Below are positions 3,352 through 26,563 of a DNA stretch of 31,648 nucleotides, piece after piece. The DNA is from a virus. How positions within the stretch are numbered: position 1 is the stretch's first letter; every line of letters starts with the position of its first letter. The stretch is from the IMG/VR virus record IMGVR_UViG_3300030103_003003, positions 1-31,648 of that record; one strand, 5' to 3'. A program made the position numbers and the translations under genes. The notes under the pieces are model-generated. The model ran no database searches, was not told the DNA's origin, and was given only the letters and a program-made list of their open reading frames with translations.

Positions 3352-4068
3352 ATGGCTATAGTAGAACTAGAATTAAGAGTACCAGAAAAGTTAGCAGGTA
3401 TTAAGCTTAAACAGTATCAGGAATATTTAAAGATACAAAAAGAGAATGAAGAAACTGAAGACAAAGGAAACTTTCTTAATTCCAAATGTATTCAGATATT
3501 TTGTGGTTTAACATTAAAGGAATCTTATAACCTACCAGTTAAGATGTTTGATGGTGTATTAAAGCAAATAGGTAATTGCTTTGATGAACCTACTCCACTT
3601 ATAAAAGAGTTTAGTATGACTGGCTCTAATGGAGTTACTGTTGAGTTTGGTTTTATACCTCAATTAGATGAAATGACTTTTGGTGAGTATGTGGATTTAG
3701 AAAACTTTATTTCTGATTGGGATAACATGCACAAAGCTATGGCTGTATTATACAGACCTATTACTTTTAAAAAGAATGGAAAGTATAGAATAGAAGATTA
3801 TGATGGCTCAGATAAGTACTGGGAGGTTATGAAAGATGCTCCAGTAAATGTTTCTTTAGGTGCGATGCTTTTTTTTTATCGTTTAGGGAAAAAATTGTCA
3901 AAATATACGATGGATTATTTAATCCTACAAAAGCAAGCTCAGGAGGATTCCAAGTCGGAGATGGATTCGGGAAAAAATGGGGATGGTATCAATCAATTTA
4001 TGCTCTTGCTGGAGGAAAGGTATCAGGAATTAATAAAGTTACAAAAATTCCATTACACCAATGTTTAA
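3352..4068 (+). CDS. Tail assembly chaperone A, unshifted form, 238 aa
   Basis: This is the first gene of tail module A. The 238 residues start MAIVELELRVPEKLAGIKL, with a body of about 200 residues resembling tail-chaperone N-terminal parts in Bacteroidota phages (LNSKCIQIFCGLTLKESYNL; GEYVDLENFISDW). The last ~30 codons after the slippery region at 3969-3978 are low in hydrophobic pattern (DSGKNGDGINQF), while the -1 frame carries a convincing protein segment, as in lambda G versus GT. The short form alone would be the G-like product. Its role is to bind and hold the tape measure during tail assembly. It is preceded by the structured leader and the AGTTATC motif and followed by tail terminator and completion genes. 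Confidence 0.7.
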   Translation: MAIVELELRVPEKLAGIKLKQYQEYLKIQKENEETEDKGNFLNSKCIQIFCGLTLKESYNLPVKMFDGVLKQIGNCFDEPTPLIKEFSMTGSNGVTVEFGFIPQLDEMTFGEYVDLENFISDWDNMHKAMAVLYRPITFKKNGKYRIEDYDGSDKYWEVMKDAPVNVSLGAMLFFYRLGKKLSKYTMDYLILQKQAQEDSKSEMDSGKNGDGINQFMLLLEERYQELIKLQKFHYTNV

Positions 4069-4145
4069 TATGGTTGGAGTTTGAAAAAGAGAAAAACGAT
4101 TTAGAACAAAAGATGATTAAAAACGCATATAATAAAAATAGATAA
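3352..4145 (+). CDS. Tail assembly chaperone A, -1 frameshift fusion, about 264 aa
   Basis: After codons GGA AAA at 3970-3975 the ribosome can slip back one base and read on to TAA at 4143-4145, adding 56 residues. The added part includes WGWYQSIYALAGG, then KIPLHQCLIWLEFEKEKNDL, a pattern typical of the T-like C-terminal part of phage tail chaperones (aromatic pair, 'LA-G', a helix with L-YL). The extension has no ATG-led gene of its own, and its stop overlaps the next ATG (TAATG at 4143-4147), as expected if ribosomes arrive there in this frame. The fusion would be made in a minor amount relative to the unshifted form and recruit tube subunits to the tape measure. Confidence 0.65.
3969..3978 (+). 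promoter_or_regulatory. Slippery site for -1 frameshift (G GGA AAA AAT)
   Basis: In the reading frame of the 3352 gene the bases are G GGA AAA AAT. They contain two overlapping X XXY YYZ heptamers, GGGAAAA (3969-3975) and AAAAAAT (3972-3978). Both allow a -1 shift into the open frame ending at 4145. Confidence 0.65.
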
Positions 4146-4603
4146 TGACACAAGTTTACGACATACTAGACAAAATAAGAGATAGACTAAGAGATAACCC
4201 TAGTGTATTCTCTGTAACCTTTGGAGACATAAGTGAAGTCGACCTTAACAAGACAACAATATTTCCATTAAGCCACCTTACAATAACTAACGTAACATTT
4301 GAAAGAAGTGTTGTTAATTTTAATATAGCACTATTATGTTTAGATGTAGTAGATTACAATAAAGAAAAGTATGATGACGATATCTTTTATGGTAACACTA
4401 ATTTACAAGATATATATAATACTCAACTACAAGTTGTAAATGATGTTGTACAGTCTGTAAGAAGAGGGAGTTTATTTGATAGCAAAATACAATTAGTTGG
4501 AGAACCAGTAGCTACTCCATTTAAAGATAAATATGAAAATGAATTAGCTGGATGGGGTGTAGAAATTAATGTAAGCATGATTAATGATATAAGCATTTGC
4601 TAA
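4145..4603 (+). CDS. Tail terminator or tube-completion-like protein, 152 aa
   Basis: The 152-residue alpha-beta protein begins MTQVYDILDKIRDRLRDNPS. It has a central strand-rich part and a conserved-looking block, LQDIYNTQLQVVNDVVQSVR, followed by PFKDKYENELAGWGVEINVS and a C-terminal NDISIC. In Bacteroidota siphophages this type follows the chaperone or neck genes, and I read it as the tail terminator that caps the tube. The family call rests on pattern and position, not on a catalytic motif. Its ATG overlaps the stop of the frameshifted chaperone, and its stop overlaps the ATG at 4603, so it is translationally coupled on both sides. Confidence 0.55.
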   Translation: MTQVYDILDKIRDRLRDNPSVFSVTFGDISEVDLNKTTIFPLSHLTITNVTFERSVVNFNIALLCLDVVDYNKEKYDDDIFYGNTNLQDIYNTQLQVVNDVVQSVRRGSLFDSKIQLVGEPVATPFKDKYENELAGWGVEINVSMINDISIC

Positions 4604-5091
4604 TGGCTTTTGATAACTTAAAAAATGTATTAGATAAATATGCAAAGGCATATACTCAAAAATTTAAAGCTAAGTTAAAAAGCGATAGAACCAATGCTTC
4701 TGGTAGACTGGTAAATAGTATAAAACCTGAAATGCTACAGGATGGTTTTGCTATACTAGGAAAAAGATATATAGAACAAATATCTGAAGGTAGAAAGAGA
4801 GGTAAAATGCCACCATGGTCCCCTAGAGACAACAGTATCTTGAATTGGGTTAAAACAAAGAATATAGTTCCAAGAAAAGGAGGTTCAAGTCCCAACAATA
4901 TTAAAAGGTTAGCTTTTGTAATAGGTAGGTCAATAGGAAGAAGAGGAACTATAGCTAGATTTGGATACAGAGGAACTGATATAATAGACTTTGTACATAA
5001 ACAACTTGGTGTTCAAATGGGAGAAGAAATATTTGCAGCATATAAAATAGATTTAGAGAAAATATTAAACAAACAAATTAAGAAAAAATAA
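4603..5091 (+). CDS. HK97 gp10-like neck/tail completion protein, 162 aa
   Basis: I choose ATG 4603 (overlapping the previous TAA) over TTG 4597. The 162 residues begin MAFDNLKNVLDKYAKAY, with a helical N-terminus, an SGRLVNSIKPEML block resembling the 'S-G-L-ASI' opening of gp10-like tail completion proteins, a Gly/Pro-rich loop (KRGKMPPWSPRD), NWVKTKNIVP, and a very basic C-terminal helix (EKILNKQIKKK). Such proteins sit at the head-tail interface. The charged, RG-rich middle (IGRRGTIARFGYRG) is consistent with a ring-forming neck subunit. Its stop overlaps the next ATG at 5091. Confidence 0.6.
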   Translation: MAFDNLKNVLDKYAKAYTQKFKAKLKSDRTNASGRLVNSIKPEMLQDGFAILGKRYIEQISEGRKRGKMPPWSPRDNSILNWVKTKNIVPRKGGSSPNNIKRLAFVIGRSIGRRGTIARFGYRGTDIIDFVHKQLGVQMGEEIFAAYKIDLEKILNKQIKKK

Positions 5092-6272
5092 TGTCAACAA
5101 TAATCAATTCAAGAAGTCCTTATTACTTTAAAGTATCTGATGCTAATTTAAACTCAGCTACAATTCAAATTTACATTTGGACTGGTTTATATTCAGCTAG
5201 AGTAGTTGGAGATTTAAAATATACTTTATCTAAAGAAGAAGTTGGAGATACTAATTACGTTGTATTTGAAGTAAGTGAGCTTGTAAGAGACTTTCTTGAA
5301 ACAGAATATGGTAATTACTCTACTGATACAATATGGACTGATATAGACACTACAATATACGATTCAGCAGGTGCAATAGTTCAAGTAGGTGGACAAGATA
5401 TAGTAACAAGCACATTTTTAGTTCTTGATGGTTATGGTTATTTTGAAGAGAACTCTAATCCTAGAACAAGCATAAACCCAACAGCTTCTTCATATACACC
5501 TCAAGTATTACAAGATAATTTAAACATATACTTTAACTCAGGTCAAGATATTAAAATTCCTGTATTTGCAGAAGCTTTATCTTATGTTACATTAACTTCT
5601 GCTGGTGGTGCAAATATAAATTGGGATGATGCAGATGAATTTTGGGATACTTATGATGTTAATTGGGGAGCAGCTACCACTCCAATACAAATAGTAGATA
5701 GTGGAAACTCTGACCAAAAAATTCAATATATAATATTAACTGACACCGAAAACTTACAAACAGGAGACAAGGTTACTTTTGTTAGCCCAGCTCCTCCAGC
5801 AACTGCTACCCAAACTACAGTTATAAATCTAATTTCTGTTGCAGAAGCAAAATACACTCCATTAAACATAATATTTTATAATAAATATGGAGCATTACAG
5901 AATATGTGGTTCTTTAAGAAGTCAACAAATTCAATAAATGTTATGTCTGAAAACTACAAGTCTAACATACTAGATTTAGATAATAGTGGAGGAACACCTT
6001 CTTATGTTATAAATAAACATCAAGAAAAAATATTTATGGTAAACTCAAGAGAATCTATAAGTGTAAGTACTGATTTTATAAGTGAAGAATATAATGAGGT
6101 AATAAGACAACTATTAAACAGTGAACAAGTTTGGGTTGATGATGGAACTAATGTATTGCCTATAAATTTAAAAAGTAAATCATTTGAACTTAAAAAAGGT
6201 GTTAATGACAGATTTGTTAATTATACTATATCTTTTGATTATGCGTTTGACAAAATAAACAACATTCTGTAA
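5091..6272 (+). CDS. Distal tail/baseplate structural protein A1, 393 aa
   Basis: The 393-residue, strand-rich, Ser/Thr/Asn-rich protein starts MSTIINSRSPYYFKVSD. The N-terminal ~130 residues look like a beta-sandwich (IQIYIWTGLYSARVVGDLKY; ELVRDFLETEYGNY). An Asp/Trp-rich insertion near residues 179-193 (NWDDADEFWDTYDVNW) is followed by a second strand-rich domain ending SFDYAFDKINNIL. Equivalent proteins stand between tail completion and adsorption genes in Bacteroidota phages and are probably the distal tail ring or a baseplate hub part. It overlaps both neighbours by one base, so it belongs to the same tail operon. Exact position in the particle is not known. Confidence 0.6.
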   Translation: MSTIINSRSPYYFKVSDANLNSATIQIYIWTGLYSARVVGDLKYTLSKEEVGDTNYVVFEVSELVRDFLETEYGNYSTDTIWTDIDTTIYDSAGAIVQVGGQDIVTSTFLVLDGYGYFEENSNPRTSINPTASSYTPQVLQDNLNIYFNSGQDIKIPVFAEALSYVTLTSAGGANINWDDADEFWDTYDVNWGAATTPIQIVDSGNSDQKIQYIILTDTENLQTGDKVTFVSPAPPATATQTTVINLISVAEAKYTPLNIIFYNKYGALQNMWFFKKSTNSINVMSENYKSNILDLDNSGGTPSYVINKHQEKIFMVNSRESISVSTDFISEEYNEVIRQLLNSEQVWVDDGTNVLPINLKSKSFELKKGVNDRFVNYTISFDYAFDKINNIL

Positions 6273-8482
6273 TGCAAAAAATAGTATTATATATAAAAAA
6301 TAGCGAAGGAGTTTTTAAGAGAATGGACATGTTTAATGATGAATCTGTTGTTCTTAAATCTCAAATACAAAATATTAAAGATGTAGGAAAAGTGTTTACT
6401 GATTTCTCAAGAACATTTACCCTGCCATCCTCAAAAGAAAACAACAAGCTATTTAAACATTATTATAATGAAGCAATAGAAAACGGTTTTGATGCTAGAA
6501 ACAAAAAAGAAGCAATAATAGAGTTAGATTTCTTACCTTTTAAAAGAGGAAAGATATATCTAAATTCTGTAAAAATGAAAAATAATCAAATTCATTCTTA
6601 CAATATAATATTTTATGGGAATACTGTAAGTTTAAAAGATTTGCTTGGAGATGATGAATTAAGCCTTTTGTCTGAATTAGATACTTATAAGCATGAATAT
6701 AACAATATTAATGTAAAAGCAGGACTAGAAAGTGGACTTTCTTCAGGAAAAATAATATATCCTTTAATTTCTCACACTAAAAGATTTTATTATGACTCAG
6801 CACAATCTTCTCCAAATTACAGCGGAAATTTATATTACAATACTACTCAAAATAATATAGGACTTTCTTTTGATGATTTAAAACCAGCAATAAAATGTTT
6901 AACTATAATAGAAGCTATAGAAAACAAATATTCTATATCTTTTACTAGAGACTTTTTTAGTACAACTCCATTTAGCAATTTATTTTTATGGTTAAGCAGA
7001 AACAAAGGTGCTGTTGGAGGAGATGAAAACCAAGAACAATTACTAACAAGAATATGTGGTGATTGGGCTTTCAATGGAACAGGAACGATAGGTTTTGCTG
7101 TTGTTAATGATACATGGACCGTAAGTACTAAAGATAATGATGAAAGGTTTCAGGCTAGTATAACAGTAACCCCTACTTCTGGTGGTCAGACTGTTCCTTA
7201 TAAAATAAAAGTTATTGATTATGAATCAGGGAATATTATTGGAGAAAGCTCTTTGGCGGCTGGAACAAAAACATTTACTACACAAATAGTTCCAAGTTTT
7301 GAGTTGGTCACATATAAAATTAAATTTATAATAGAATCTGAATCTACTCTTTCTTTTACTCCTCTTTTAGAATTAACTAAATATGTTTTAAATCCAGTAA
7401 CAGAACAAGTTATAAGTACGAGTTCTGCTCAATATGATATAGATGGAACAGGCAATTCTATAAGTACTGTTTCTGAAATATTAATAACAGAGAATGTTCC
7501 TAAAATAAAAATAATAGATTTCTTAACAGGATTATTTAAGATGTTTAATTTAACAGCTTATTATATTGATGACTATGGAGATGCTGATTATGGGAAGGTT
7601 TATGTGGATACTTTAGACAACTTTTATGCAGATGCTTCTAACAATCCTTCTGGAGGAAAAATAAACATAACAAAGTACGTTGATATATCGAATACAGAAA
7701 TAAAACCATCTATTCAATTTACTGAGCTAGACTTTAAATATCAAGAACCCTCTACTTTATTGTCAATAAATCACAAAGAACAGTTTAATAAGGTTTTTGG
7801 AGATGAATCATATAAACCAAATAATGTAGATAGGGGAACTCCATACGATATAGAAACTCCTTTTGAACACATGAAATTTGAAAGAATAATAGATAGCAAT
7901 AAAGCTTCCTCAAGTCCGTATAGCTCAATAACCTCACCTCAAGCCTATATAACAGACATTTTGTGGGGATACTCTGCTAGTGGAGAATTTGATACTGATT
8001 TAGATGCTATTCCTAAAACAGGAAACTATGAACCAACCTTAACTAAACCTCTTGTTTTTTATGCAATTCAAGAAACAGGATTAACTGCTGGTTCTGGTAT
8101 AAAATGGGTTTCTACTACAACTCCTTCTGAGATAACACAATATTATAGACCTTCTAACACAAACGAAGATGGCTCTTCTTCTACAGCTCCAGCACATACT
8201 ATAAATTTTAGTGATGAGATTGATGAATGGAATCTTATTAATTATGCTAACAGTGGATATACAAACTCATTATTTAAGAAGTTTTATGAGAGTTATATAG
8301 TAGATGTTTTTAATCAGTACAAGAGAATATATAAATTAAAAGCAAAGTTTCCTGCTGACTTTTTAATTAACTATAGACTAAATGATATCCTTATTATACA
8401 AGACAGGGAATTTACAATAAACTCAATAAGTACTAATTTAAAAGATGGTAAGAGTGATTTAGAATTATTAATAAAATTATGA
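6272..8482 (+). CDS. Tail hub/adsorption protein A2, 736 aa
   Basis: The N-terminus of this 736-residue protein matches a layout I associate with Bacteroidota phage tail-tip proteins: YIKNSEGVFKRMDMFNDESV, IKDVGKVFTDFSRTFTLPSS and FKRGKIYLNSVKMKNNQIHS. The middle (about 180-400) is a beta-rich, Ser/Thr-rich carbohydrate-binding-like region. The C-terminal part (about 410-736) has FLTGLFKMFNLTAYYIDDYG and a final RLNDILIIQDREFTINSIST, as in hub proteins. No enzymatic motif stands out. It likely forms the tail tip in contact with the cell surface, downstream of the 5091 protein. Its stop overlaps the start of the next small gene. Confidence 0.6.
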   Translation: MQKIVLYIKNSEGVFKRMDMFNDESVVLKSQIQNIKDVGKVFTDFSRTFTLPSSKENNKLFKHYYNEAIENGFDARNKKEAIIELDFLPFKRGKIYLNSVKMKNNQIHSYNIIFYGNTVSLKDLLGDDELSLLSELDTYKHEYNNINVKAGLESGLSSGKIIYPLISHTKRFYYDSAQSSPNYSGNLYYNTTQNNIGLSFDDLKPAIKCLTIIEAIENKYSISFTRDFFSTTPFSNLFLWLSRNKGAVGGDENQEQLLTRICGDWAFNGTGTIGFAVVNDTWTVSTKDNDERFQASITVTPTSGGQTVPYKIKVIDYESGNIIGESSLAAGTKTFTTQIVPSFELVTYKIKFIIESESTLSFTPLLELTKYVLNPVTEQVISTSSAQYDIDGTGNSISTVSEILITENVPKIKIIDFLTGLFKMFNLTAYYIDDYGDADYGKVYVDTLDNFYADASNNPSGGKINITKYVDISNTEIKPSIQFTELDFKYQEPSTLLSINHKEQFNKVFGDESYKPNNVDRGTPYDIETPFEHMKFERIIDSNKASSSPYSSITSPQAYITDILWGYSASGEFDTDLDAIPKTGNYEPTLTKPLVFYAIQETGLTAGSGIKWVSTTTPSEITQYYRPSNTNEDGSSSTAPAHTINFSDEIDEWNLINYANSGYTNSLFKKFYESYIVDVFNQYKRIYKLKAKFPADFLINYRLNDILIIQDREFTINSISTNLKDGKSDLELLIKL

Positions 8483-8628
8483 TAAAGAATATAATAGATT
8501 TATTGTCTGCTTCTGATTGGTATTTATATGATGAAGATATAGATATTGCAAAAGGTAAATATAAATCTCCTTTAACTTGGAAAGAAATAAAACAAAGCAT
8601 AAAACGAAATACATACAACAATGGCTGA
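8479..8628 (+). CDS. Small tail-operon protein, 49 aa, unknown
   Basis: ATG at 8479 overlaps the preceding stop (ATGA), and its own TGA at 8626-8628 overlaps the next gene by 8 bases. This double coupling supports a real gene despite its 49 residues (MIKNIIDLLSASDWYLYDED; C-terminal LTWKEIKQSIKRNTYN). It is a mixed acidic-then-basic peptide with no motif I recognise. From its place between the tail tip and the tape measure it may be a small structural or assembly factor. Confidence 0.6.
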   Translation: MIKNIIDLLSASDWYLYDEDIDIAKGKYKSPLTWKEIKQSIKRNTYNNG

Positions 8629-10624
8629 AAACAATATTAAAATATATACTATAAAGGTTGATACTAAAACTGGTAAAATTGCTGTAGACAGTTTAACAAA
8701 AGGATTTGTTAAGTCTGAAACAGCATTAAAGTCTCTTAATACAACTCTTCAGACTACAACTAAAAAAGGAGTAAGTCCTTTAGCGGATTCTACAGGATTA
8801 GCTGGAGCTGCGGTAAATGAACTTGGTAGGACAGTTTCTGATGCTGGATATGGTATTAGAGGTATGGCAAACAACATTTCTCAGTTAGGTAGTTTATTTG
8901 CAATTTTGATAGCCAGAACAGGGAGTTTTTCAAATGCCCTAAAAGTAATGGGAAAGCAATTTGTAGGTCCTCTTGGAGTATTGTTTTTCTTTCAAGCAGC
9001 AGTTGCGGCACTAGAATACTTTAGTAGAGAAACTAAAACCGCAGAAGATGCTGTAAGTGATTTAGATAATGCTTTTGGTAAACAAGCCTCTCAATTAAAA
9101 ACCTATGTTTCTATATTACAAGAAAGTAATGTCCCTTTAGATGAAAGAAAAGAATTGGTAACTGAGCTAAATAAAGAACATAAAGACTTAAACATACAAT
9201 TAGACGAAGAAGGTAGATTAACTGAGGAATCTACAAGATTAACAGACCAATATATTAAAACACTAGAAACAAAGGCTAAAGCACAAGCTATAATTACTAG
9301 ACTTCAAGAAAACTATAATGAAGAACTAGAAAGAGAAACAGAGGAGATTGGGGAAAACTTAACCTTTTTTGACAAGTTAGCAACTGCATTTACTATAAGC
9401 AAAGGTTATGGTGTTTTGATGATGAACCTGCAAGAAAAGTCAATTAGAAAAAAGACAGAAGCTGATAGGGAAGCTAATGAAGAAAATGAAAAGCTAATTG
9501 CTATGCTTAATGAACTTGGTATTATTCCAGAAATAAATGAAAAGAAAGAAGAAGGACCAAGAAAAGCAAGAAAAGAATTTGTTGCTAAAAGATTGTCTTT
9601 TGCTGACGACATATTAAAATCAGAACAAAACGTAACAAAGCAAACTATACATGGTAAAGAACAACAATTAAGAGCAGAATCTCAATACCAAATGGATTTG
9701 GCTCAATTAAAGTTTGAGGAATTTAAGAGAAAACAACAAGAAAGAGTAGATGCAATAAAAGACAATGAGGACAGAATAAAAGCACAAAAGAAAGCAGACG
9801 AAGCTATTAAAGAGTCGGAAAACTCATTATCTGAATTTAAGATACAGAAGATGAAAGAAACAAATCAACTTATAGATATAGAAAGAATAAATGATTTACA
9901 AGGAGCAAGACTTAGACAGGCTGATTTTATGGCAAAAGAAAGAGAGGATATTTTAGCTTTTGATGTTGTTATGGCTGAAAACGAAATGAATAAAATAGAA
10001 AATGAAAGATTATTAAATGAAGAAATACATAATAATAAAATAAAAAATATACAAGATGAAATAGCTGAAAGAAAAATAGCTAATAAGAGTTATGTGGATT
10101 TAATGATAAAGGAAACTAATGAGGTAAATAAACAAACAAGACTTCAAACAAAGCTAAAGAGAAAAGAAGAAAAAGCCAAACTTGCTATTGCTAATCAAGT
10201 AGCTCAAGCTATTATAGGCATTGCTGGGGAGGGTTCTGCTGTAGGTAAAGCAGTTGCGGTTGCTATGGCTATAATGAATACCAAGAAGGCTGTTACTGCC
10301 GCTTTAGGAGCAACACCTTATGGACCTTGGAATATAGCACAAGCAGTTGCTACAGGTGTGTTTGGATTTAAACAGGTACAGGAAATTATGGCAACTAAAC
10401 TTCCTGCTGGTGCTGGTGGCAGAGCAGGTTCAGGTGGTGCTGGGGCTTCTATGTCTGTATCTGCACCGAGCTTCAACGTAGTAGGTGCCTCAGGAACAAG
10501 TCAAATTGCGGAAGCTGTTACTGGTGCTCAAGACAGACCATTTAGGGCTTATGTGGTTAGTGGAGATGTAAGCTCTGCTCAAGAATTAGACAGAAAAACA
10601 GTTTCAGAATCTTCCTTAGGATAA
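8621..10624 (+). CDS. Tape measure protein A, 667 aa
   Basis: The 667-residue protein has the layout of a tape measure: an N-terminal region with Gly/Ala-rich hydrophobic segments (VSDAGYGIRGMANNISQLGS; GPLGVLFFFQAAVAALEYF, about residues 70-145). A long, charged, nearly uninterrupted coiled coil follows (about 150-520), and then a second hydrophobic stretch (VAQAIIGIAGEGSAVGKAVA). The tail is Gly/Ala/Ser-rich (PAGAGGRAGSGGAGASMSVS), typical of Bacteroidota phage tape measures. Its length sets tail length, and it may be delivered into the host with the DNA. It is the last gene of tail module A. Glycine codons here are mostly GGA, unlike the second tape measure at 22629. Confidence 0.8.
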   Translation: MAENNIKIYTIKVDTKTGKIAVDSLTKGFVKSETALKSLNTTLQTTTKKGVSPLADSTGLAGAAVNELGRTVSDAGYGIRGMANNISQLGSLFAILIARTGSFSNALKVMGKQFVGPLGVLFFFQAAVAALEYFSRETKTAEDAVSDLDNAFGKQASQLKTYVSILQESNVPLDERKELVTELNKEHKDLNIQLDEEGRLTEESTRLTDQYIKTLETKAKAQAIITRLQENYNEELERETEEIGENLTFFDKLATAFTISKGYGVLMMNLQEKSIRKKTEADREANEENEKLIAMLNELGIIPEINEKKEEGPRKARKEFVAKRLSFADDILKSEQNVTKQTIHGKEQQLRAESQYQMDLAQLKFEEFKRKQQERVDAIKDNEDRIKAQKKADEAIKESENSLSEFKIQKMKETNQLIDIERINDLQGARLRQADFMAKEREDILAFDVVMAENEMNKIENERLLNEEIHNNKIKNIQDEIAERKIANKSYVDLMIKETNEVNKQTRLQTKLKRKEEKAKLAIANQVAQAIIGIAGEGSAVGKAVAVAMAIMNTKKAVTAALGATPYGPWNIAQAVATGVFGFKQVQEIMATKLPAGAGGRAGSGGAGASMSVSAPSFNVVGASGTSQIAEAVTGAQDRPFRAYVVSGDVSSAQELDRKTVSESSLG

Positions 10625-10644
10625 ATAAAACAAAACATAAATAT

Positions 10645-10661
10645 AAAAGTTATCATATTAT
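10645..10661 (+). promoter_or_regulatory. AGTTATC-type leader motif, copy 2
   Basis: AAAAGTTATCATATTAT runs straight into the ATG at 10660. It matches the 3324 and 14833 copies at most positions. Because it abuts the start codon, transcription starting downstream of it would not include the start, which favours a message-level role at this copy. Confidence 0.4.
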
Positions 10662-12692: not shown

Positions 12693-12715
12693 AAATACAA
12701 CAAAAACAAAACCAC

Positions 12716-12731
12716 AAAGTTATCAAGTTAT
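12716..12731 (+). promoter_or_regulatory. AGTTATC-type leader motif, copy 3 (weaker)
   Basis: AAAGTTATCAAGTTAT lies 25 bases before the scaffold ATG at 12756. It shares AAGTTATC with the other copies and then diverges. Confidence 0.35.
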
Positions 12732-12755
12732 ACTATTAATTTAAATCAATAATAT

Positions 12756-13199: not shown

Positions 13200-13224
13200 T
13201 AAACCAAAACTAAAATAATAAAAA

Positions 13225-15202: not shown

Positions 15203-15203
15203 T

Positions 15204-16934: not shown

Positions 16935-16936
16935 TT

Positions 16937-17452: not shown

Positions 17453-17577
17453 TGGAACAAAAAAAAATAAAAACATATAAACCTAAAGAAAGTAATGTAA
17501 TTAAATTAGATTCTTTCTTACAAAAATTAAACAAAGATGGCAAACACAATAAATTGGGGAAAAATATATTGCAGTAG
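17452..17577 (+). CDS. Small basic protein, 41 aa, unknown
   Basis: ATG at 17452 overlaps the connector stop (TAATG), and TAG ends it at 17575-17577. The 41 residues are Lys-rich (MEQKKIKTYKPKESNVIKLD; FLQKLNKDGKHNKLGKNILQ). It overlaps the next tiny gene (17537) by 41 bases in another frame. Overlap with the preceding stop is the main reason to believe it; no motif is recognisable. Confidence 0.45.
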   Translation: MEQKKIKTYKPKESNVIKLDSFLQKLNKDGKHNKLGKNILQ

Positions 17578-17644
17578 TTCGTGGGGAGATGACAGCAACG
17601 ATGATACAGTTAAAAACGGAAGCGAACCAACTTGTTTTAGTTAA
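17537..17644 (+). CDS. Microprotein with NWGKIYCSSSWGD motif, 35 aa
   Basis: ATG 17537 to TAA 17642-17644 gives 35 residues: MANTINWGKIYCSSSWGDDS followed by an acidic NDDTVKNGSEPTCFS. From memory, tiny proteins starting with NWG-IY-SS-WG stand directly upstream of tail-fibre genes in marine Bacteroidota phages. It ends two bases before the fibre ATG, so a link with fibre assembly is plausible. With two Cys and many turns it may fold only as part of a complex. This is based on motif memory and spacing, not on a search. Confidence 0.55.
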   Translation: MANTINWGKIYCSSSWGDDSNDDTVKNGSEPTCFS

Positions 17645-17646
17645 TT

Positions 17647-20589
17647 ATGGCTACTCTTTCAGGAAATAAAATAAAAAATACCTATCAGTCTCTTGTTAAG
17701 TTTTCTGACAATGGTAATATAACAACCTCAGCTAAACAACTAACTGATGGATTTGGCAACAATTCTCCTATATATGTTTCAACAACTCAAGTAGGTATAG
17801 GAGTTACTCCAGAATCAGGATTAAATCTACACGTTTACGGAGATGCAAAAATAGGAAGCAATTTAACTGTAATAGGAAACCTAGTGGTTGAAGGAAGCAC
17901 AACAACTGTAGGAACTGATACATTAACAGTAAAAGACCCGTTAATTGTACTGGCTAACAACAACACTTCAACAGATGCAGTAGATATAGGTTTTTACGGT
18001 AAATATACACCTTCAGGAACCACATTATACTCTGGATTGTTTAGAGAGGCTCTAACAGGCAAATACAGGCTATTTAAAGGGTTAGAAACAGAACCAACAA
18101 CTACCGTAAATTTATCAGGAACAGGGTACGCTAAAGCAGATTTAATAATAGGTAATATAGAGACTAATGGACTTTCAGAAGGTTCATCGTTATTTGATTT
18201 TACAAAAAATGTTGCAATAGATGGAACTTTTGCCGTTACTGGAATAGCTGAATTTGATAGCACTATAAATCATATACAAATCAATACCACAGTCACTAAA
18301 TTTACTGGTATATCTGGAAGCGGTTTTAATGCGAGTAAACTAGAATTTTTTAAAAATATAGATTTACAAATAAGATTAAATGGTGAGGACGGAGAAATAA
18401 CCACTCTCGGAACTTTGTCTGCTGGAGGAATAACTAGTACTGGTAATTTAGGTGTTAATGGAAATATATCAGCTGGAGGCACTGGTTCGTTTACTGGACA
18501 AGTTACTATCCCACAAACACCAACCTCAAATACTCACGCAGCATCAAAAGGATATGTGGACACACAAATTGGTGCTAACAACGAATTGTCAGAGGTTTTA
18601 GCAAACGGAAATACTACTGGAGGAACAGATATAGCTATTACAGCAGGTGACAAAATAACTAATTTTACGTCTACTGGAATTGATGACAATGCCACTTCTA
18701 ATGTATTGACAATAGCTGATACAGGTCTAACTGTTGGAAATTCTGGAACATCAAGATTTACAGACACAAACCTTTTACCATTACAATTAAGTTCTGGTGT
18801 AGATGTTACCACACAAGGTTCAACATCCGCATTATTAGGCATAGGCGGTTTAAATGGTTCTACTTATACGGATGCAATACAAATTGGCGGTCTTTTGAAT
18901 GCAAATGGTCAAGATGGTAAGTTTTTTTTAAATTTATCATCCTCAACCTCAACATATCCAACAGTTTTAGAGATAGACAGTTCTGGGGAAATAACAAATA
19001 CAATGTCTGGTGGTAAAGTTATTACAGATACAAATGGACATATAACAAGCTTTCAAACTTTAGATACTGCAACAGCAGGTGGTAGATTTATTGGCAAAAG
19101 TAATAGAGGTATTTTAGGTTCGATTCATATAGAACAAACTACTACTGGCGCTGATGGTGGTTATATAGGTTTTGAAACATCTCCTAATGGCTCGACCACA
19201 CCTACTGAAAAAATGAGATTAGATGCTGACGGAAACTTAGGAATAGGAGTAACACCAGAAGCTTGGACAGTATTTAAAACTTTACAAATAGGTCAAGCAT
19301 CGGCTTTTGTTGGTAGAATATCTTCAAATCAAACTGATGTATCAACTAATTTTTATTACGATGGAGTTGAAAAAAGAATAACTACTGGGTATACTCAAAG
19401 ATATACACAAACATCAGATGGAAACCATCAATTTTGGACAGCAGGTACTGATAGTGCAGATTCAGCGATTACTTTTTCAAAAAAATTTGAAATATTAAAT
19501 AACGGAAACGCAACTTTTGCAGGTAGTGTAGATATAAATGGTTCAGGGAATAATTCTATTGCAGGTGATTTATATTTTGGTGTTAATGCTGATATATTTA
19601 AAAGTTCAGGAACATTAGGTATAAATGCTGATAACTCAACTTTTTCAGGAAATGTAAGTATTAATTCAACATCAGCACCTGTTAAAAATTTAGTAGTTGA
19701 AGGAGATTCCTTAGCTTATGCTACTATCAGAATTTTAAGTAATTCAACAGCACACGGAGCAGAAATAGAATTTGGAGATTCATCTGATGTTGATTATGGT
19801 TCTATAACACAATTTGCTTCAAGTGCAGGTGAAGGTGGCAGAATGAGATTTAGAGCAGGAGGAATTGAAACAATGAATTTGAAAGATGGAAATGGAACTT
19901 TTGAAGGAAATCTAAAAATAAATAGTTATTTAAATATAAATGGCGTTGCAGCTGGTACATCAACCTATCAAGAATGGAGAAATAATGATGTTTTATTTGC
20001 TTATAATGGAAGTGCAGCAGCTATTATCAGTGGTGGTTCATCAACAGATTATGTTGCTGGAAATACAACTGGTGGAACAAGTGTAATTTTAGCCACTAAT
20101 AACACAGAAAGGTTTAAAATAAGCGGTACTGGTGATATTGGGATTAATTTAGCTCCCGCCAGTGGCATAAGAGTATTAATAAAAGGTCATGGAACAACAT
20201 CAGGCACAAGGTCATTACAAGCAAATAATGGCAGTAATCAAGACATGTTTTATATCAATGATGATGGCTCAGGATTTTTAAAAGCTAGTGCATGGACGTA
20301 TGGTTCTGATATAAGCTTAAAAGAAAATATTACAGATGTTGAAAATGGTGTTGATATGGTTTTACAAATGAAACCAAAACATTTTGATTATATAGAAGGA
20401 CCAAAAAATAATTTAGGTTTTATCGCACAAGATATTCAAAAAATAATTCCTGAAGCTGTTAGTGTTGTTAATGAAGAAAATGAAACTTTAGGTTTAAAAA
20501 CTGATTTTTTAGTTCCTTATTTAGTTAAAGCAATACAGGAAGTAAAAGCAGAAGTCGATTTATTAAAGCAACAATGTGAATGTAAATAA
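17647..20589 (+). CDS. Tail fibre with C-terminal S74 self-cleaving chaperone domain, 980 aa
   Basis: The 980-residue fibre starts MATLSGNKIKNTYQSLVKFS. It holds repeated short beta-helix-like units (VTPESGLNLHVYGDAKIG near residue 57; LGIGVTPEAWTVFKTLQIG near 532; INLAPASGIRVLIKG near 837) and two VxxGNTTGGT motifs. Residues 887-980 are an intramolecular chaperone of endosialidase type (Peptidase S74): SDISLKENI, where Ser887 and Lys892 have the Ser-x4-Lys spacing of the catalytic dyad, then MKPKHFDYIEGPKNNLGFIA and a C-terminal coiled coil. After trimer folding it should cut itself near Ser887. The fibre binds the host surface. Codon style shifts along the gene, making it the likely joint of the two halves of this window. 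Confidence 0.85.
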   Translation: MATLSGNKIKNTYQSLVKFSDNGNITTSAKQLTDGFGNNSPIYVSTTQVGIGVTPESGLNLHVYGDAKIGSNLTVIGNLVVEGSTTTVGTDTLTVKDPLIVLANNNTSTDAVDIGFYGKYTPSGTTLYSGLFREALTGKYRLFKGLETEPTTTVNLSGTGYAKADLIIGNIETNGLSEGSSLFDFTKNVAIDGTFAVTGIAEFDSTINHIQINTTVTKFTGISGSGFNASKLEFFKNIDLQIRLNGEDGEITTLGTLSAGGITSTGNLGVNGNISAGGTGSFTGQVTIPQTPTSNTHAASKGYVDTQIGANNELSEVLANGNTTGGTDIAITAGDKITNFTSTGIDDNATSNVLTIADTGLTVGNSGTSRFTDTNLLPLQLSSGVDVTTQGSTSALLGIGGLNGSTYTDAIQIGGLLNANGQDGKFFLNLSSSTSTYPTVLEIDSSGEITNTMSGGKVITDTNGHITSFQTLDTATAGGRFIGKSNRGILGSIHIEQTTTGADGGYIGFETSPNGSTTPTEKMRLDADGNLGIGVTPEAWTVFKTLQIGQASAFVGRISSNQTDVSTNFYYDGVEKRITTGYTQRYTQTSDGNHQFWTAGTDSADSAITFSKKFEILNNGNATFAGSVDINGSGNNSIAGDLYFGVNADIFKSSGTLGINADNSTFSGNVSINSTSAPVKNLVVEGDSLAYATIRILSNSTAHGAEIEFGDSSDVDYGSITQFASSAGEGGRMRFRAGGIETMNLKDGNGTFEGNLKINSYLNINGVAAGTSTYQEWRNNDVLFAYNGSAAAIISGGSSTDYVAGNTTGGTSVILATNNTERFKISGTGDIGINLAPASGIRVLIKGHGTTSGTRSLQANNGSNQDMFYINDDGSGFLKASAWTYGSDISLKENITDVENGVDMVLQMKPKHFDYIEGPKNNLGFIAQDIQKIIPEAVSVVNEENETLGLKTDFLVPYLVKAIQEVKAEVDLLKQQCECK

Positions 20590-20590
20590 G

Positions 20591-20598
20591 TATATTTG
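20591..20598 (+). promoter_or_regulatory. Bacteroidota -7 box TATATTTG before 20622 gene
   Basis: TATATTTG followed by TATAGAATTATAAAT is similar to the boxes at 21358 and 22607 (GTATATTTGAATAAAATTA). No TTTG at -33 is evident; the upstream bases lie within the fibre gene. Confidence 0.5.
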
Positions 20599-20621
20599 TA
20601 TAGAATTATAAATTTAAAAAA

Positions 20622-20867
20622 ATGAGCAAACTAGAGGAAAAAGAATTAAAAGAATTAAGGGAATCACAAGGAAAAATCAACGTAATCAAAATGGATATTG
20701 GAACTTTAATGGGTCAAATACATTCATTAAATCATATGCAAATTGATGAAATAAACAAACAAAGTGAATTAAAAAAGTCATTAGAGGAAAAATATGGAAA
20801 AATAACAGTCGATTTAGAATCTGGAGAATTTACTAAAATCGATGATGATTCAAAACTAAAAGAATAA
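20622..20867 (+). CDS. Short coiled-coil protein downstream of the fibre, 81 aa
   Basis: The 81-residue protein is one continuous amphipathic helix (MSKLEEKELKELRESQGKIN; LNHMQIDEINKQSELKKSLE) with a short beta tail (EKYGKITVDLESGEFTKI) and an acidic C-terminus. Small proteins with this exact order (coiled coil, then a YG-I-VDL-SGEF strand pair) are frequent just after S74 fibres in Bacteroidota phages. A role as fibre chaperone or small virion component is plausible. It has its own -7 box and is followed 3 bases later by a tail tube gene. Confidence 0.6.
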   Translation: MSKLEEKELKELRESQGKINVIKMDIGTLMGQIHSLNHMQIDEINKQSELKKSLEEKYGKITVDLESGEFTKIDDDSKLKE

Positions 20868-20870
20868 ATA

Positions 20871-21344
20871 ATGGCTTTAATAAATGGATCAAGTTTTTTA
20901 ATATATAAAGGTGATGATCCTATTGGTCATAGTAATAATGCTGTAATAAATTTAGAATGTGATTTACCAGAAAGTACAACAAAAAATTCTGGTGGTTGGA
21001 AAGAGGTTTTAGCTGGTGTTAGAAGTGGAACTGTTGAGGTTGAGGGGTTGATTGATTATAGTGATTCAGTAAACTTTGAACAACTTGCCGAAATGGTTTT
21101 GCTTAGGACCACAACAAAATTTTATTTTAGTCAGGATATAGAAGGTTTTGGGGATGGTTTAGTGTTATTAGGCGATGGATATATTTCTAATGTTGAGGAG
21201 GAGGGAAGTCATGAAGCCCCAACGAGTTTTAACCTTTCAATAACTTTAACAAGTGTAATATTAATAGATGAAAGGACTGGTGAGGTTTGGGATACCAACT
21301 TTGATGAGTGGGAAAATTCCGACTATAATTGGGAAGCGGCATAA
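20871..21344 (+). CDS. Tail tube protein paralog B1, 157 aa
   Basis: The 157 residues begin MALINGSSFLIYKGDDPIGH and share a clear block with the next gene: DLPESTTKNSGGWKEVLAGV, RSGTVEVEGLIDY, and a closing SFNLSITLTSVI. This is the TP901-1-like phage major tail protein pattern (the tube subunit). The C-terminal extension EVWDTNFDEWENSDYNWEAA is Asp/Trp-rich and absent from the paralog. It recalls the NWDDADEFWDTYDVNW stretch in the 5091 protein. Having two tube paralogs suggests one forms the tube and the other a variant ring or decoration. Confidence 0.7.
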   Translation: MALINGSSFLIYKGDDPIGHSNNAVINLECDLPESTTKNSGGWKEVLAGVRSGTVEVEGLIDYSDSVNFEQLAEMVLLRTTTKFYFSQDIEGFGDGLVLLGDGYISNVEEEGSHEAPTSFNLSITLTSVILIDERTGEVWDTNFDEWENSDYNWEAA

Positions 21345-21357
21345 AAATATTATTTTG

Positions 21358-21365
21358 TATATTTG
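21358..21365 (+). promoter_or_regulatory. Bacteroidota -7 box TATATTTG before 21398 gene
   Basis: TATATTTGAATAAAATTA shares its 3' extension with the box at 22607, so more than the core is conserved. It lies in the 53-base gap between the two tail tube paralogs and would give the second its own transcript. Confidence 0.6.
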
Positions 21366-21397
21366 AATAAAATTATTAACTAATAAAAATTAAATAA

Positions 21398-21820
21398 ATG
21401 GCAACAGTCGGAGTGTTCAATGGAACAAATTTATTATTAAAAGTCATAACGGATGGTGGTACATTAGCAACAATAGGACACACAACATCGTGTTCACTAT
21501 CTTTGTCTAATGATTTGCCAGAGGCAACAACCAAATCAAGTGGTGGGTTTCAAGAGGTTATCGCTGGAGTTAGATCTGGAGAAATTAGTTTTGATGGTTT
21601 AGTCGCTTACGATGATGCGGCAAATGCTATTGAAATGGCTGATTATCTTTTAGCTAGACAAAAAGTTGATTTTAGTTTTGGAACAGCTGAAACAGGGGAT
21701 GCGGTTTATAGTGGTGAGGGATTCTTTTCTAGTGTTGAAATGAGTGCTGAAATGGAATCACCAGTAACTTTCTCAGGTTCAATCACTGTTACTGGCGCAA
21801 TCACTAAATCTACAAATTAA
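21398..21820 (+). CDS. Major tail tube protein B2, 140 aa
   Basis: The 140 residues begin MATVGVFNGTNLLLKVITDG and include SNDLPEATTKSSGGFQEVIA, GVRSGEISFDGLVAY and a last strand FSGSITVTGAITKSTN. This is a compact, canonical member of the phage major tail protein family (Phage_tail_2-like). It aligns by eye with the preceding gene across the whole core. It has a dedicated -7 box and an A-rich leader, fitting the high output needed for the tube. It is followed by a hairpin-containing leader and the chaperone gene. Confidence 0.75.
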   Translation: MATVGVFNGTNLLLKVITDGGTLATIGHTTSCSLSLSNDLPEATTKSSGGFQEVIAGVRSGEISFDGLVAYDDAANAIEMADYLLARQKVDFSFGTAETGDAVYSGEGFFSSVEMSAEMESPVTFSGSITVTGAITKSTN

Positions 21821-21840
21821 GATTTAAACTTTTAATAATC

Positions 21841-21867
21841 GACAACTAGATTAAGGAACTAGGTGTC
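21841..21867 (+). promoter_or_regulatory. Hairpin in the leader of tail chaperone B
   Basis: GACA at 21841-21844 pairs with TGTC at 21864-21867, and CTAG at 21846-21849 with CTAG at 21859-21862, leaving one mismatch and a 9-base loop. No T run follows directly, so it may stabilise or attenuate the message instead of ending it outright. Confidence 0.5.
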
Positions 21868-21883
21868 TTAAATATATATATAT

Positions 21884-22273
21884 ATGGCAAACAGGAAACG
21901 AGGATATTATTCTCTTAGTATAGGTGGTAAAAACCGCACCATGCATTTTTCAATGAATTTCTGGGCAAACTTTACTGATAATTTAGGTGTATCAATAGAA
22001 AAAATTGGTAATGTTTTTCAAGATGGGATTTCACTATCTGGAATTAGAGCTTTGGTTTATTCTGGTTTATTAGCTAATGATCAAGAGCAAGGCAATGAAA
22101 TTGATTACAATGAATTTAAAGTTGGAATGTGGCTTGAGGATTTAACATCTGATGAGCTTACTAAAATAATTGAATCCATGATGGAATCTAGGATACTTGG
22201 AAATGATCTAAACATGGGCATTAATAGAAACGTAAAAAAAACCACTAAGGTGGGAAAGCGCCCAGCCAACTAA
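21884..22273 (+). CDS. Tail assembly chaperone B, unshifted form, 129 aa
   Basis: The 129-residue G-like product starts MANRKRGYYSLSIGGKNRTM, then FSMNFWANFTDNLGVSIEKI and ISLSGIRALVYSGLLANDQE. This is the pattern of tail assembly chaperones (a strand pair, 'N-A-F-E--G--', and 'ALRALLWAGL-A'). The last residues after the GGGAAAG site are VGKRPAN. Length matches lambda gpG (about 140). It stands directly between the tail tube and tape measure genes, the classical position. The ATG follows a run of TA repeats without a Shine-Dalgarno site. Confidence 0.8.
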   Translation: MANRKRGYYSLSIGGKNRTMHFSMNFWANFTDNLGVSIEKIGNVFQDGISLSGIRALVYSGLLANDQEQGNEIDYNEFKVGMWLEDLTSDELTKIIESMMESRILGNDLNMGINRNVKKTTKVGKRPAN

Positions 22274-22590
22274 CCTGGGATAATATACTAGATTATTACA
22301 TTGGTCAGGTTGGCATAAATCCTAGTAATTTCTGGTCAAATACTTGGACTGAGAATCAATTATTAGGTGAATCACACAATATAAAATTGAATTTAGATTG
22401 GGAACGAACTAGGTATCTGGCATCAATGATTTTTAATGTTAATTGTGAAAAGAGGGCGCAAATGATTACACCAGATAAATTATTCCCATTACCACAAGAT
22501 GTATATTTGGAGCGTGGCAAACCTAAATCAACTAGGGAACAATATGAATCATTTTTGAAAAAAGTTAACAGTATGAAGTCATCAAAATGA
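21884..22590 (+). CDS. Tail assembly chaperone B, -1 frameshift fusion, about 235 aa
   Basis: A -1 slip on GGGAAAG at 22252-22258 joins 125 residues of the 21884 frame to 110 residues read from 22258 to the TGA at 22588-22590. The extension begins APSQLTWDNILDYYIGQVGI and continues NPSNFWSNTWTENQLLGE. This closely follows the 'W-LL-YA-G-LG--P--FW--T--E' pattern of T-like chaperone parts. It ends in a basic tail (NSMKSSK). No ATG-led frame covers this extension; the first start-like codon there is TTG at 22387, in its middle, which argues for frameshift synthesis. The fusion would bridge tape measure and tube subunits. Confidence 0.85.
22252..22258 (+). promoter_or_regulatory. Canonical slippery heptamer GGGAAAG
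   Basis: G GGA AAG in the frame of the 21884 gene is the same heptamer used by phage lambda G/GT. The -1 frame is open from 22249 to 22587 and closed just upstream (TAA at 22246), so the shift must happen within 22249-22270. This heptamer is the only good site there. Confidence 0.9.
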
Positions 22591-22604
22591 TGGCTTTTTT
22601 TTTT
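22578..22604 (+). terminator. Intrinsic terminator at the end of chaperone B
   Basis: GTCATCA at 22578-22584 pairs with TGATGGC at 22588-22594 (one G-T wobble) around loop AAA, followed by ten T. The hairpin contains the stop codon of the frameshift product. Confidence 0.85.
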
Positions 22605-22606
22605 CG

Positions 22607-22614
22607 TATTTTTG
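22607..22614 (+). promoter_or_regulatory. Bacteroidota -7 box TATTTTTG before the tape measure gene
   Basis: TATTTTTGAATAAAATTA begins three bases after the terminator T run and shares its extension with the 21358 box. It would restart transcription for tape measure B, uncoupling its amount from the chaperone. Confidence 0.6.
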
Positions 22615-22628
22615 AATAAAATTACATT

Positions 22629-24581
22629 ATGTCAAATGAACTAAAAGTTAAGATTATTGGCGATGCATCAAAATTAACCGCATCATTAAATAAGGCAAGT
22701 TCTAAATTATCAGCATTTGGTAAATCGGCAAGGAAAGTTGGAAAAGATTTATCATTAAAATTAACATTACCAATTGCATTGGCTGGTGGGGCCGCAATTA
22801 AATTAGCTAGTGATTTTGAGGAATCTTTAAACAAGGTTGATGTCGCATTTGGTAAATCATCGGCAGAAGTCAAAAGTTTTGCAAAAACTACATTAACACA
22901 GTTTGGGATTGCTGAAGGATCAGCACTAGATATGGCCGCTCTTTTTGGCGATATGGCCACTTCAATGGGTATTACTAGAAATGAAGCATCTTTAATGAGT
23001 ACATCAATGGTTGGATTAGCTGGTGATTTAGCATCATTTAAAAATATTGGTATCGAACAAGCAACCACCGCATTAGCTGGTGTTTTTACTGGTGAAACCG
23101 AATCATTAAAAAGATTAGGTATTGTAATGACTGAGATAAATTTAAAACAATTTGCAATGTCTCAGGGTATTCAAAAGAATATCAAAGACATGACACAAGC
23201 GGAAAAAGTAAGTTTAAGGTATCAATTTATTTTATCTAAAACTGGCAACGCTCAAGGTGATTTCGCTAAAACCCAAGGGGGTGCGGCAAATCAAATGAGA
23301 ATATTTACCGAGGGTTTAAAGCAATTAGGTCAATCAATTGGTTCAATTATGTTACCAGCATTTACAAAGATTGTAGCTTTTACAAATAAAATTATTGAAA
23401 AATTTATTGCATTAGATGATACAACCAAAAAAATAATTATTGTTGTTGGTTTAGTTGTTTCAGCAATAGGTCCATTTATTTTTATACTAGGATCAGTTTC
23501 AACAATTTTAAGCATCGTTACTACTAAGTTTACAATTTTAAACACAGCAATGAATGCAAATCCTTTTATATTAGTTGGAACTGCTGTTGTTGGACTTGTG
23601 GCTATATTTGTTACGTTTGTACAAAAATTAGAACCAGCAGTTAGTAAATGGCAAACTTTTGTTAATATAATTAAGTCATTTGGTAGTCCTGGTAAATTTG
23701 CGGCATTACAATTGAAAACAAAAGCTGAAAATGCAAAAGAAGCCGCCGCACAAGCTGAGAAAGACAAAAAAGCAACGGATAAATTAACAAAAGCAAATAA
23801 TGAATTATTAAAATCTTTACAAAATATTAATAGTCAATCTGGAACTAAAGGGAATGTACAAAGACAAACAGTTGGCCAAGTAAATCAAATTGCACCTGGG
23901 GCTGCTGGATTATCAGAAACAGCAATGGATCCAATAACCCAAATGGCAATGGGCGCGAAAAATGGAAACGCTATAATGGCTGAGGAATTGGCAAAGTCAA
24001 ACGAAATGTTACAATCAAACATTGAACAAAGAAAATCAAAAATAGAACAATTTAAACAAATAGGTCTCGCAATGGGTGAATCTATGCAAAATACCTTTGC
24101 AACAATGGGGAATTCAATTGCACAATCTTTGGGAATGGGTGAAAGTGCATTGGGTACTTTTGCCGGTACATTAGTGCAAACAGCGATGACATCAATCGGA
24201 TCATCATTGGCAACCACAATGGGTTTTGGTGCTGAGGCCGCGGCTGGTACTGCTAAATCATTGGGACCTATTGGAGCTTTTGTTTTACCTGCATTATTAG
24301 CTGGTGCAGCTGTTGCAGTTAAAGGCGCTTTTTCAAAAGTTCAAGCACCACAAAAATTTGCTAATGGTGGTATTGTATCAGCACCAACAATGGGGCTAGT
24401 TGGTGAATATGCTGGTGCTAAATCCAACCCTGAGGTTATTGCACCACTAGATAAATTAAAAGGAATGATTGGTGAAAAAGGTCAACAAAAAGTTGATGTG
24501 GGTGGTTCATTTACTTTAAAAGGTCAGGATTTAGTTGTTGCATTACAAAGGGCAAACACAAACAGAAACAGAGTATTATAA
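22629..24581 (+). CDS. Tape measure protein B, 650 aa
   Basis: The 650-residue protein has a PhageMin_Tail-type N-terminal part: KIIGDASKLTASLNKASSKL, LTLPIALAGGAAIKLASDFE, VDVAFGKSSAEVKSF and FGDMATSMGITRNEASLMST. A TM-like region follows around residues 265-330 (KIIIVVGLVVSAIGPFIFIL; LVGTAVVGLVAIFVTFV), then a Lys/Ala coiled coil and a Gly-rich C-terminus with FANGGIVSAPTMGLVGEYAG. That last motif is typical of tape measure C-termini. It is unrelated in layout to the 8621 protein, and its glycines are mostly GGT. Its stop overlaps the next ATG. It sets tail length for module B. Confidence 0.85.
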   Translation: MSNELKVKIIGDASKLTASLNKASSKLSAFGKSARKVGKDLSLKLTLPIALAGGAAIKLASDFEESLNKVDVAFGKSSAEVKSFAKTTLTQFGIAEGSALDMAALFGDMATSMGITRNEASLMSTSMVGLAGDLASFKNIGIEQATTALAGVFTGETESLKRLGIVMTEINLKQFAMSQGIQKNIKDMTQAEKVSLRYQFILSKTGNAQGDFAKTQGGAANQMRIFTEGLKQLGQSIGSIMLPAFTKIVAFTNKIIEKFIALDDTTKKIIIVVGLVVSAIGPFIFILGSVSTILSIVTTKFTILNTAMNANPFILVGTAVVGLVAIFVTFVQKLEPAVSKWQTFVNIIKSFGSPGKFAALQLKTKAENAKEAAAQAEKDKKATDKLTKANNELLKSLQNINSQSGTKGNVQRQTVGQVNQIAPGAAGLSETAMDPITQMAMGAKNGNAIMAEELAKSNEMLQSNIEQRKSKIEQFKQIGLAMGESMQNTFATMGNSIAQSLGMGESALGTFAGTLVQTAMTSIGSSLATTMGFGAEAAAGTAKSLGPIGAFVLPALLAGAAVAVKGAFSKVQAPQKFANGGIVSAPTMGLVGEYAGAKSNPEVIAPLDKLKGMIGEKGQQKVDVGGSFTLKGQDLVVALQRANTNRNRVL

Positions 24582-26563
24582 TGGCTTACGCGGTAAAATA
24601 TAGATTGGAATTTTCAGATAACAATGAAAAAGACAAAAAAATTGAAATTTTAAAAAAAAATTATACAGGATCAGTATTACCAATAATTGGAACAGATAAT
24701 CCATGTGAAATTACATGGGAAGGCGATGATGATTTTTATTCGCCAATTAAAGGATCTAAATGTAAACTTAATTTATTTGTTACTGACACTGTTTCGTATG
24801 ATAATTTTTATGAATTTGATGAAAGGGAATATCAAGTTAAAATATCTTATAAAGATTCATCTAATAATTATCAAATTTATTGGATTGGATGGCTCGTGGT
24901 TGATTCATTTAGTGAGGCGATAACATCAAAACCATTTACCATTTCTTTGACCGCACTTGATGGATTGGGTACATTAGATTCCTATTCAATGCCCATGGAC
25001 ACCACGACAACTGATTTTCAAAATGCTAGATTTTTTATTACAAATTGTTTAAATAATTTAGATTTAGAGCTTGATATTTATGTTAGTCAGGATATATTTA
25101 TTTTAAATCCAGGCGCAACAGTTTTTTCAATTTATGATGTAATGAATATAAAACCATATACATTACAAAAAGATAAATTCGCTCTAAATGATGCAAAGAA
25201 AATTTTAGAACAAATATTGAAATTTACAAACGCTAGGATTTTTCAAAGTTTTGGTAGGTGGTATATAATTAATAATTCTAGTTATTCAGCACAAAGTATT
25301 AAAAATTCTAGTGCATCAACAGCTCAAGGTGGTACAATACCAACTGGTATTAGAGCCGCTGAATCGGCTTCGTTAGTTGCTAATAATACCGAATCAATCC
25401 AGTATGTTATTTATAATTATTTAGGTTCATATCAATCAACCACCACAATTGATGTTTTAAAACAAGTTCCAAGTCAATTATTACCTATTGATAATAGTTT
25501 GACTAAAGAATATTTAAGGCCATTAAACGAGTTTAACATTACCCATGAAACATCACAATTTTTAGATGTTAATACTATAAAAAATAGTGGTTTAGAAAAT
25601 GGTTTAGCTGATTGGACAACCTATACATCAACTGGCACGACATCGCCTGGTGAATTATCAACAGATTTTACAAAACAAGGAAATAACAGTTATAAAAACA
25701 CACAAGCGCAAACCAATGAAACTGGAACTAGAAAAACACTAACAACATCAGTGGATGTTTTATCACAACCTTTTTTATCAAATACATTAAAAATCAACAC
25801 TTATTTTGACACCAATAGTGGTTTTGGCTCTATTAGTTTTAGATTTAGAGTTAAAATTGAAGACACATCAAGTGGTCAAGTTAGATATTGGAACAGCACG
25901 ACAGGTAGTGGGTGGGGTGGTAGCGACCATATAAACATACAATCAGTAAAAACAGGCAATGTATGGAAAGAGTTTTCATATAATTTAGAAAACTATCCAA
26001 TATCTGGTACATTAACAGTTGATTTATTTGAACCCTTTGTGCAAAATAGTGGTGGTTTAAATGCAATTTATTATGATAATATAACACTAGAATTTAAAAG
26101 ATTGGAAAATAACAGGGAAACAAATTTTTTCTCTAGCATTGATGGTTTTGCATATCAAAGAATTAGAACGACTGGTAGCAATTTAACTGGTGTTTTAGAA
26201 TTTAGCGATTTACAGTTATCTAATAATAATTACAACAACATCACAACAACTGATTTTATACGACCTAGAGATGACAACGCGAGTTTTATAAAGTCAGTTG
26301 AACAAATTGTTACTCAACAAGTAATAAATGATTATAGAACTAATCTTGTTAGATATGAGGGCAAACTATATAATCTTATTAATGATCCAATAAGTTTAAA
26401 TAATAAAGTTTGGATTAATTTTGGCTCTAGTGTTTTAAGGGAACCTGTTAGTTGTTATATTGATGGAATGACTTACAATGTGATTAAAAATTCTTTTGAT
26501 GTTATAATGCACATACCAAATCAAGATGATGACCAAACAAGCACATTTAAGACAACTTTTTAA
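24581..26563 (+). CDS. Distal tail/adsorption protein B, 660 aa
   Basis: The 660-residue protein begins MAYAVKYRLEFSDNNEKDKK. Its first ~240 residues follow a scheme common in Bacteroidota tail-tip proteins: PCEITWEGDDDFYSPIKGSK, YQVKISYKDSSNNYQIYWIG, FTISLTALDGLGTLDSY and ARIFQSFGRWYIINNSSYS. Residues about 325-490 look like a carbohydrate-binding beta-sandwich (NSGLENGLADWTTY, ending GGLNAIYYDNITLEFK). The C-terminal part closes with WINFGSSVLREPVSCYIDGM. It parallels the module A tail tip at 6272 in role but not in sequence. It probably reads the host glycan surface. It overlaps the tape measure stop and ends 28 bases before a strong terminator. Confidence 0.7.
   Translation: MAYAVKYRLEFSDNNEKDKKIEILKKNYTGSVLPIIGTDNPCEITWEGDDDFYSPIKGSKCKLNLFVTDTVSYDNFYEFDEREYQVKISYKDSSNNYQIYWIGWLVVDSFSEAITSKPFTISLTALDGLGTLDSYSMPMDTTTTDFQNARFFITNCLNNLDLELDIYVSQDIFILNPGATVFSIYDVMNIKPYTLQKDKFALNDAKKILEQILKFTNARIFQSFGRWYIINNSSYSAQSIKNSSASTAQGGTIPTGIRAAESASLVANNTESIQYVIYNYLGSYQSTTTIDVLKQVPSQLLPIDNSLTKEYLRPLNEFNITHETSQFLDVNTIKNSGLENGLADWTTYTSTGTTSPGELSTDFTKQGNNSYKNTQAQTNETGTRKTLTTSVDVLSQPFLSNTLKINTYFDTNSGFGSISFRFRVKIEDTSSGQVRYWNSTTGSGWGGSDHINIQSVKTGNVWKEFSYNLENYPISGTLTVDLFEPFVQNSGGLNAIYYDNITLEFKRLENNRETNFFSSIDGFAYQRIRTTGSNLTGVLEFSDLQLSNNNYNNITTTDFIRPRDDNASFIKSVEQIVTQQVINDYRTNLVRYEGKLYNLINDPISLNNKVWINFGSSVLREPVSCYIDGMTYNVIKNSFDVIMHIPNQDDDQTSTFKTTF

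Follow-up and report, generated by a model that had tools for sequence, protein, structure and literature searches.

A viral record with two siphovirus tail modules is very probably an assembly chimera of two unrelated marine phages

Gene content of the record

The DNA analysed here (the window) covers bases 1 to 31,648 of the 49,843-bp IMG/VR record IMGVR_UViG_3300030103_003003. It is followed directly by a run of ten Ns at 31649-31658, which represents a scaffold gap. The contig L004, otherwise identical, bridges this gap with 22 bases. The features of the window are listed below, with the names phage A and phage B for the gene sets to the left and to the right of the fibre gene.

1-3351, +: phage A small open reading frames, truncated by the left contig end (the A-type contig G003 has window 1-1302 after the phage A terminase)
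3352-4068, +: phage A tail assembly chaperone (phrog_32199), with a conserved -1 extension to 4142 whose peptide is kept in relatives
4145-6272, +: phage A tail-region proteins (starting at 4145, 4597 and 5091), placed by synteny with A relatives and phage P12024S
6272-8482, +: phage A distal tail/baseplate-like protein, 736 aa (phrog_38559, function unknown; homologue in P12024S; role by position)
8621-10624, +: phage A tape-measure-like protein, 667 aa (phrog_30292, function unknown; role by position and mosaic length variation)
10660-12558, +: phage A head maturation protease fusion, S78-like (PF14550)
13225-14157, +: phage A major capsid protein (phrog_11320; weaker head-protein matches; synteny)
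14225-14755, +: phage A tube- or neck-like structural protein (phrog_19091; AlphaFold model with weak, non-significant PDB matches)
15204-16934, +: phage A portal (phrog_33693, E 2.8e-108)
16937-17452, +: phage A head-completion-like protein (phrog_35048; role by synteny)
17647-20589, +: fibre gene joining both phages, with its 5' part in A context (matched by A contigs G002 and G003) and its 3' end in B context (L004, 100% from 20461)
18670-18746, +: 77-bp segment exactly identical to the last 77 bases of the record (49767-49843); putative graph branch point
20622-21820, +: phage B 81-aa open reading frame and two tail-tube proteins (PF06199, E 1.7e-07 and 1.4e-15; phrog_1407)
21884-22590, +: phage B tail assembly chaperone (phrog_2115, open reading frame 21884-22273), with a -1 frameshift at GGGAAAG (22252); slip site in 13 of 13 relatives
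22629-24581, +: phage B tape measure protein (phrog_1535, E 1.5e-38)
24581-26563, +: phage B distal tail protein, a 660-aa virion/tail protein (phrog_23570; partial homologues in Cellulophaga and Flavobacterium phages)
26699-31648, +: phage B early/replication genes, continuing past the window to the terminase (36583), portal (37809), capsid (41855), lysis genes and a fibre start (48675-49843)

All genes concerned in both tail modules lie on the + strand, and Rfam and tRNA scans gave no matches. Downstream of the window come terminase subunits, a MuF-like protein, connectors and a further portal, protease and HK97-type capsid, together with an endolysin, a holin and the 5' part of another fibre gene, which runs off the record end. 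Portal, major capsid protein and fibre start are each present twice in the whole record, and the sole large terminase detected is that of the second (phage B) set.

The two tail modules

The original prediction, made from the letters of the window, placed complete siphovirus tail modules at 3352-10624 and 20622-26563. Both were found there; they are unrelated, and each has a chaperone, a tape-measure-like gene and tube or distal tail genes. Module B presents the siphovirus tail genes in order: tube, frameshifted chaperone, tape measure and distal tail protein. Its lambda-type slippery site GGGAAAG leads into a 110-codon -1 extension. The annotation of module A is weaker than that of module B, as all its PHROG matches are of unknown function. 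Gene order and sequence homology relate it to part of the genome of Nonlabens phage P12024S, an isolate. Its character as a siphovirus tail is suggested by this synteny and by the conserved -1 frame; the putative tape measure and tube were placed only by position and weak fold matches. In the fold search of the 14225 protein against PDB, for example, the best matches were tail-terminator, neck and tube proteins, all non-significant (E 0.08 or worse).

A -1 frameshift had been proposed for both chaperones. For B it was borne out by the conserved slip site. For A, what is conserved in the relatives examined is a -1 frame (peptide FGKKWGWYQSIY...) overlapping the 3352 open reading frame; the GGGAAAA at 3969 is not conserved among relatives, and the T run at 3870 is a candidate slip site. 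The expectation that the two tape measures differ was correct, as they are unrelated (best BLASTP E 1.4).

Two further observations concern single proteins. The tape measures (8621-10624 and 22629-24581) are mosaic in both phage groups (relatives L005-L013 and L019-L023): identity falls to about 15-45% in internal blocks but is much higher in the remainder of the protein and in the neighbouring tail genes. The A protease fusion (10660-12558) and the B portal (record 37809-40067) carry the same C-terminal domains, DUF3721 and DUF5824, with one piece 35% identical, an odd appendage common to two different head proteins.

Composition and motifs of the two halves

Tetranucleotide profiles of the two halves, which the original prediction had suggested computing, separate A from B. 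The z-score correlations are 0.39-0.45 within A, where the segments included a part of G003 absent from the record, 0.42-0.50 within B, and only 0.07-0.28 between them, so composition differs across the join. The contrast in glycine codon usage is milder than had been described: B tail genes do favour GGT (GGT 0.52, GGA 0.28), but "mostly GGA" overstates the usage in A (GGA 0.48, GGT 0.41).

Two promoter-like motifs had also been assigned to the halves, and in counts this contrast is real. AGTTATC occurs 5 times in 1-17646 (expected 1.4) compared with 2 times in the B part (expected 2.6). The phage A sites, at 3328, 10648, 12718, 14043 and 14837, are mostly upstream of late genes, several of them just ahead, as had been noticed, and the motif is possibly a late promoter element of phage A. 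TAnnTTTG is indeed enriched in the B tail, where 13 occurrences compare with 3.6 expected; A has 6, with 7.5 expected. The boxes had been described as lying between tail genes, but most of the 13 are within genes.

Relatives of each half

Searching each half against phage genomes, another check proposed at the outset, linked A to P12024S and G003 and B to G025, with the two never together. G003, an IMG/VR contig of 31,079 bp, begins at window 3547 and is 98.5-99.1% identical to the record over 3547-8899 and 9568-18736, with a divergent stretch within the tape measure between them. Its own fibre gene is followed by genes for an amidase and a holin, by replication-type genes and by a terminase gene, and the contig ends in sequence that matches window 1-1302. 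Module B is absent, and adding the missing 1303-3546 would close the contig to about 33.3 kb. The single homologue of its terminase in the record, at 29% identity, is that of phage B. On the other side, G025 (32,652 bp, identical 99-bp ends) is homologous to 20622-49843 with the gene order portal, capsid, connectors, lysis, fibre, tail B, replication and terminase, and it lacks the A capsid. The order in G027 is the same. Each half therefore exists elsewhere without the other, and both of these contigs, which match the respective phage in content and order (98-99% identity for G003, about 72-82% DNA identity for G025), have a single head and tail set.

The same separation was seen in the wider collection. 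The A capsid is encoded in none of 20 B-type records and the B capsid in none of 12 A-type records, while the B tail tube is present in 14 of the 20 B-type records, the other six being short contigs. Across all loci fetched and mapped, the A and B gene sets never occur together. The lone A-gene matches in B contigs all concern 10660-12558, a gene that has C-terminal domains in common with the B portal.

Among known phages, Nonlabens (Persicivirga) phages P12024S and P12024L (Inhavirus) resemble phage A in having the same order of chaperone, tail proteins, protease, capsid, tube-like protein and portal. Protein identity is only about 28-51% (38% over 99% for the portal), and P12024S matches the A set only. 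No phage isolate matched phage A in a DNA search at near-identity, and no close isolate of phage B was found. A remote likeness to phage B's distal tail protein is seen in Cellulophaga baltica phages phi18:1, phi17:1 and phi12:1 and Flavobacterium phage 11b, whose structural or hypothetical proteins are 27-28% identical to the N-terminal third of 24581-26563. In a scan of genome contigs for the B capsid, the sole match was L127 (PBPJ01000031.1), a 35.8-kb contig in a Woesearchaeota MAG whose encoded capsid shares 73% identity with the phage B protein; it is probably a mis-binned phage contig. The record reads as part of an Inhavirus-like phage plus a nearly complete separate siphophage.

The join in the fibre gene

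The junction had been suspected in the fibre gene, within 17600-21000, and the 77-bp repeat at 18670-18746 agrees with this. The last 202 bases of the record (49642-49843) match window 18545-18746 at 93%, with the final 77 bp exact, so the join lies in fibre sequence common to both phages. The crossover itself may be anywhere from 18670 to about 20461. This range is broad because the record fibre is matched by the A contig G002 as far as 20386, at 99% up to 19892 and at 94.5% beyond a length difference, and by the B contig L004 with full identity only from 20461 onward. In exact-pattern scans of viral contigs, 20431-20460 had no match and 18742-18772 was found in the A contig G002 only; no independent contig was therefore found across the join.

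When the fibre regions (17647-20589; record 48675-49843; G002 and G003) were compared, segments 91-93% identical at the DNA level, with exact stretches, were observed between phages having unrelated heads and tails. This suggests that fibre cassettes move between phages A and B, which may have a common host.

Origin of the record

The explanation in which we have high confidence is that the record is an assembly chimera of two ordinary, unrelated marine phages. It is based on the exact 77-bp match at the very last base, on the intact relatives of each half, and on the halves never being together in any other contig examined. Two unrelated Bacteroidota-type siphophages would have coexisted in the sample with near-identical stretches in the tail-fibre gene. 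Where the fibres were identical over at least the assembler k-mer, they would have collapsed into a single graph path, with an entry and an exit for each phage. Having reached this path along phage A (1 to the fibre), the assembler would have exited into phage B, following fibre, tail B, replication, terminase, head B and lysis for one turn of a circular genome, and halted on meeting the same branch point again. In the simplest reading, phage B is circular and extends from about 18747 to 49843 (31,097 bp), and phage A joins it at the branch point, coming from the left. The length of the exact end match suggests k = 77. Contigs from de Bruijn assembly are known to break at branches and to share end sequence of maxK length (PMC10914622). 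The join would then be computational rather than physical, and each tail module would work in the ordinary way within its own phage.

A physical origin of the same structure has to be weighed against this. Phages A and B could have co-infected a cell and undergone a single crossover in the shared fibre, giving a real fused cointegrate with two complete morphogenesis sets. The 91-93% identity of the fibre segments, with its exact stretches, makes such homologous recombination possible. Nevertheless, the full cointegrate would measure about 64 kb, twice either genome, and would probably be too large for either capsid; no independent fused contig exists among the relatives examined; and the contig stops precisely with the second copy of the 77-mer, as expected of a graph artefact. 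We consider this origin very unlikely.

The original prediction offered three readings, the chimera first, then adjoining prophages or phages and a two-tail mosaic phage; the first is strongly supported and the last is contradicted. Two prophages adjoining in a host chromosome would present structural gene sets in tandem on one strand, as here, and beyond this nothing favours adjoining phages: the join, which lies within one open reading frame, showed no sign of an integrase, attachment sites or host genes, and the relatives are phage contigs with circular gene order, which leaves this reading barely a chance. A genuine single phage building two alternative tails, for which the intact state of both modules could be cited, is just as improbable and was rejected, as portal and capsid are duplicated as well, one per tail, rather than one head and packaging set serving both, near-complete genomes exist for each half without the other, composition differs, and the 77-bp contig-end match lies in the fibre.

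The assembly chimera also agrees with what has been described for viromes, where chimeric contigs consist of two genomes fused at highly similar regions (PMC5610896; PMC3901335); in a benchmark, under 5% of the contigs with a length of at least 10 kb were chimeric (PMC5610896). The present record looks like an ordinary example of these, and no difference was seen. As a consequence of this reading, a false two-tail phage is removed from consideration and the 49.8-kb record is flagged as two viruses. For similar claims there is a simple check, namely whether the end of a contig matches its own interior exactly.
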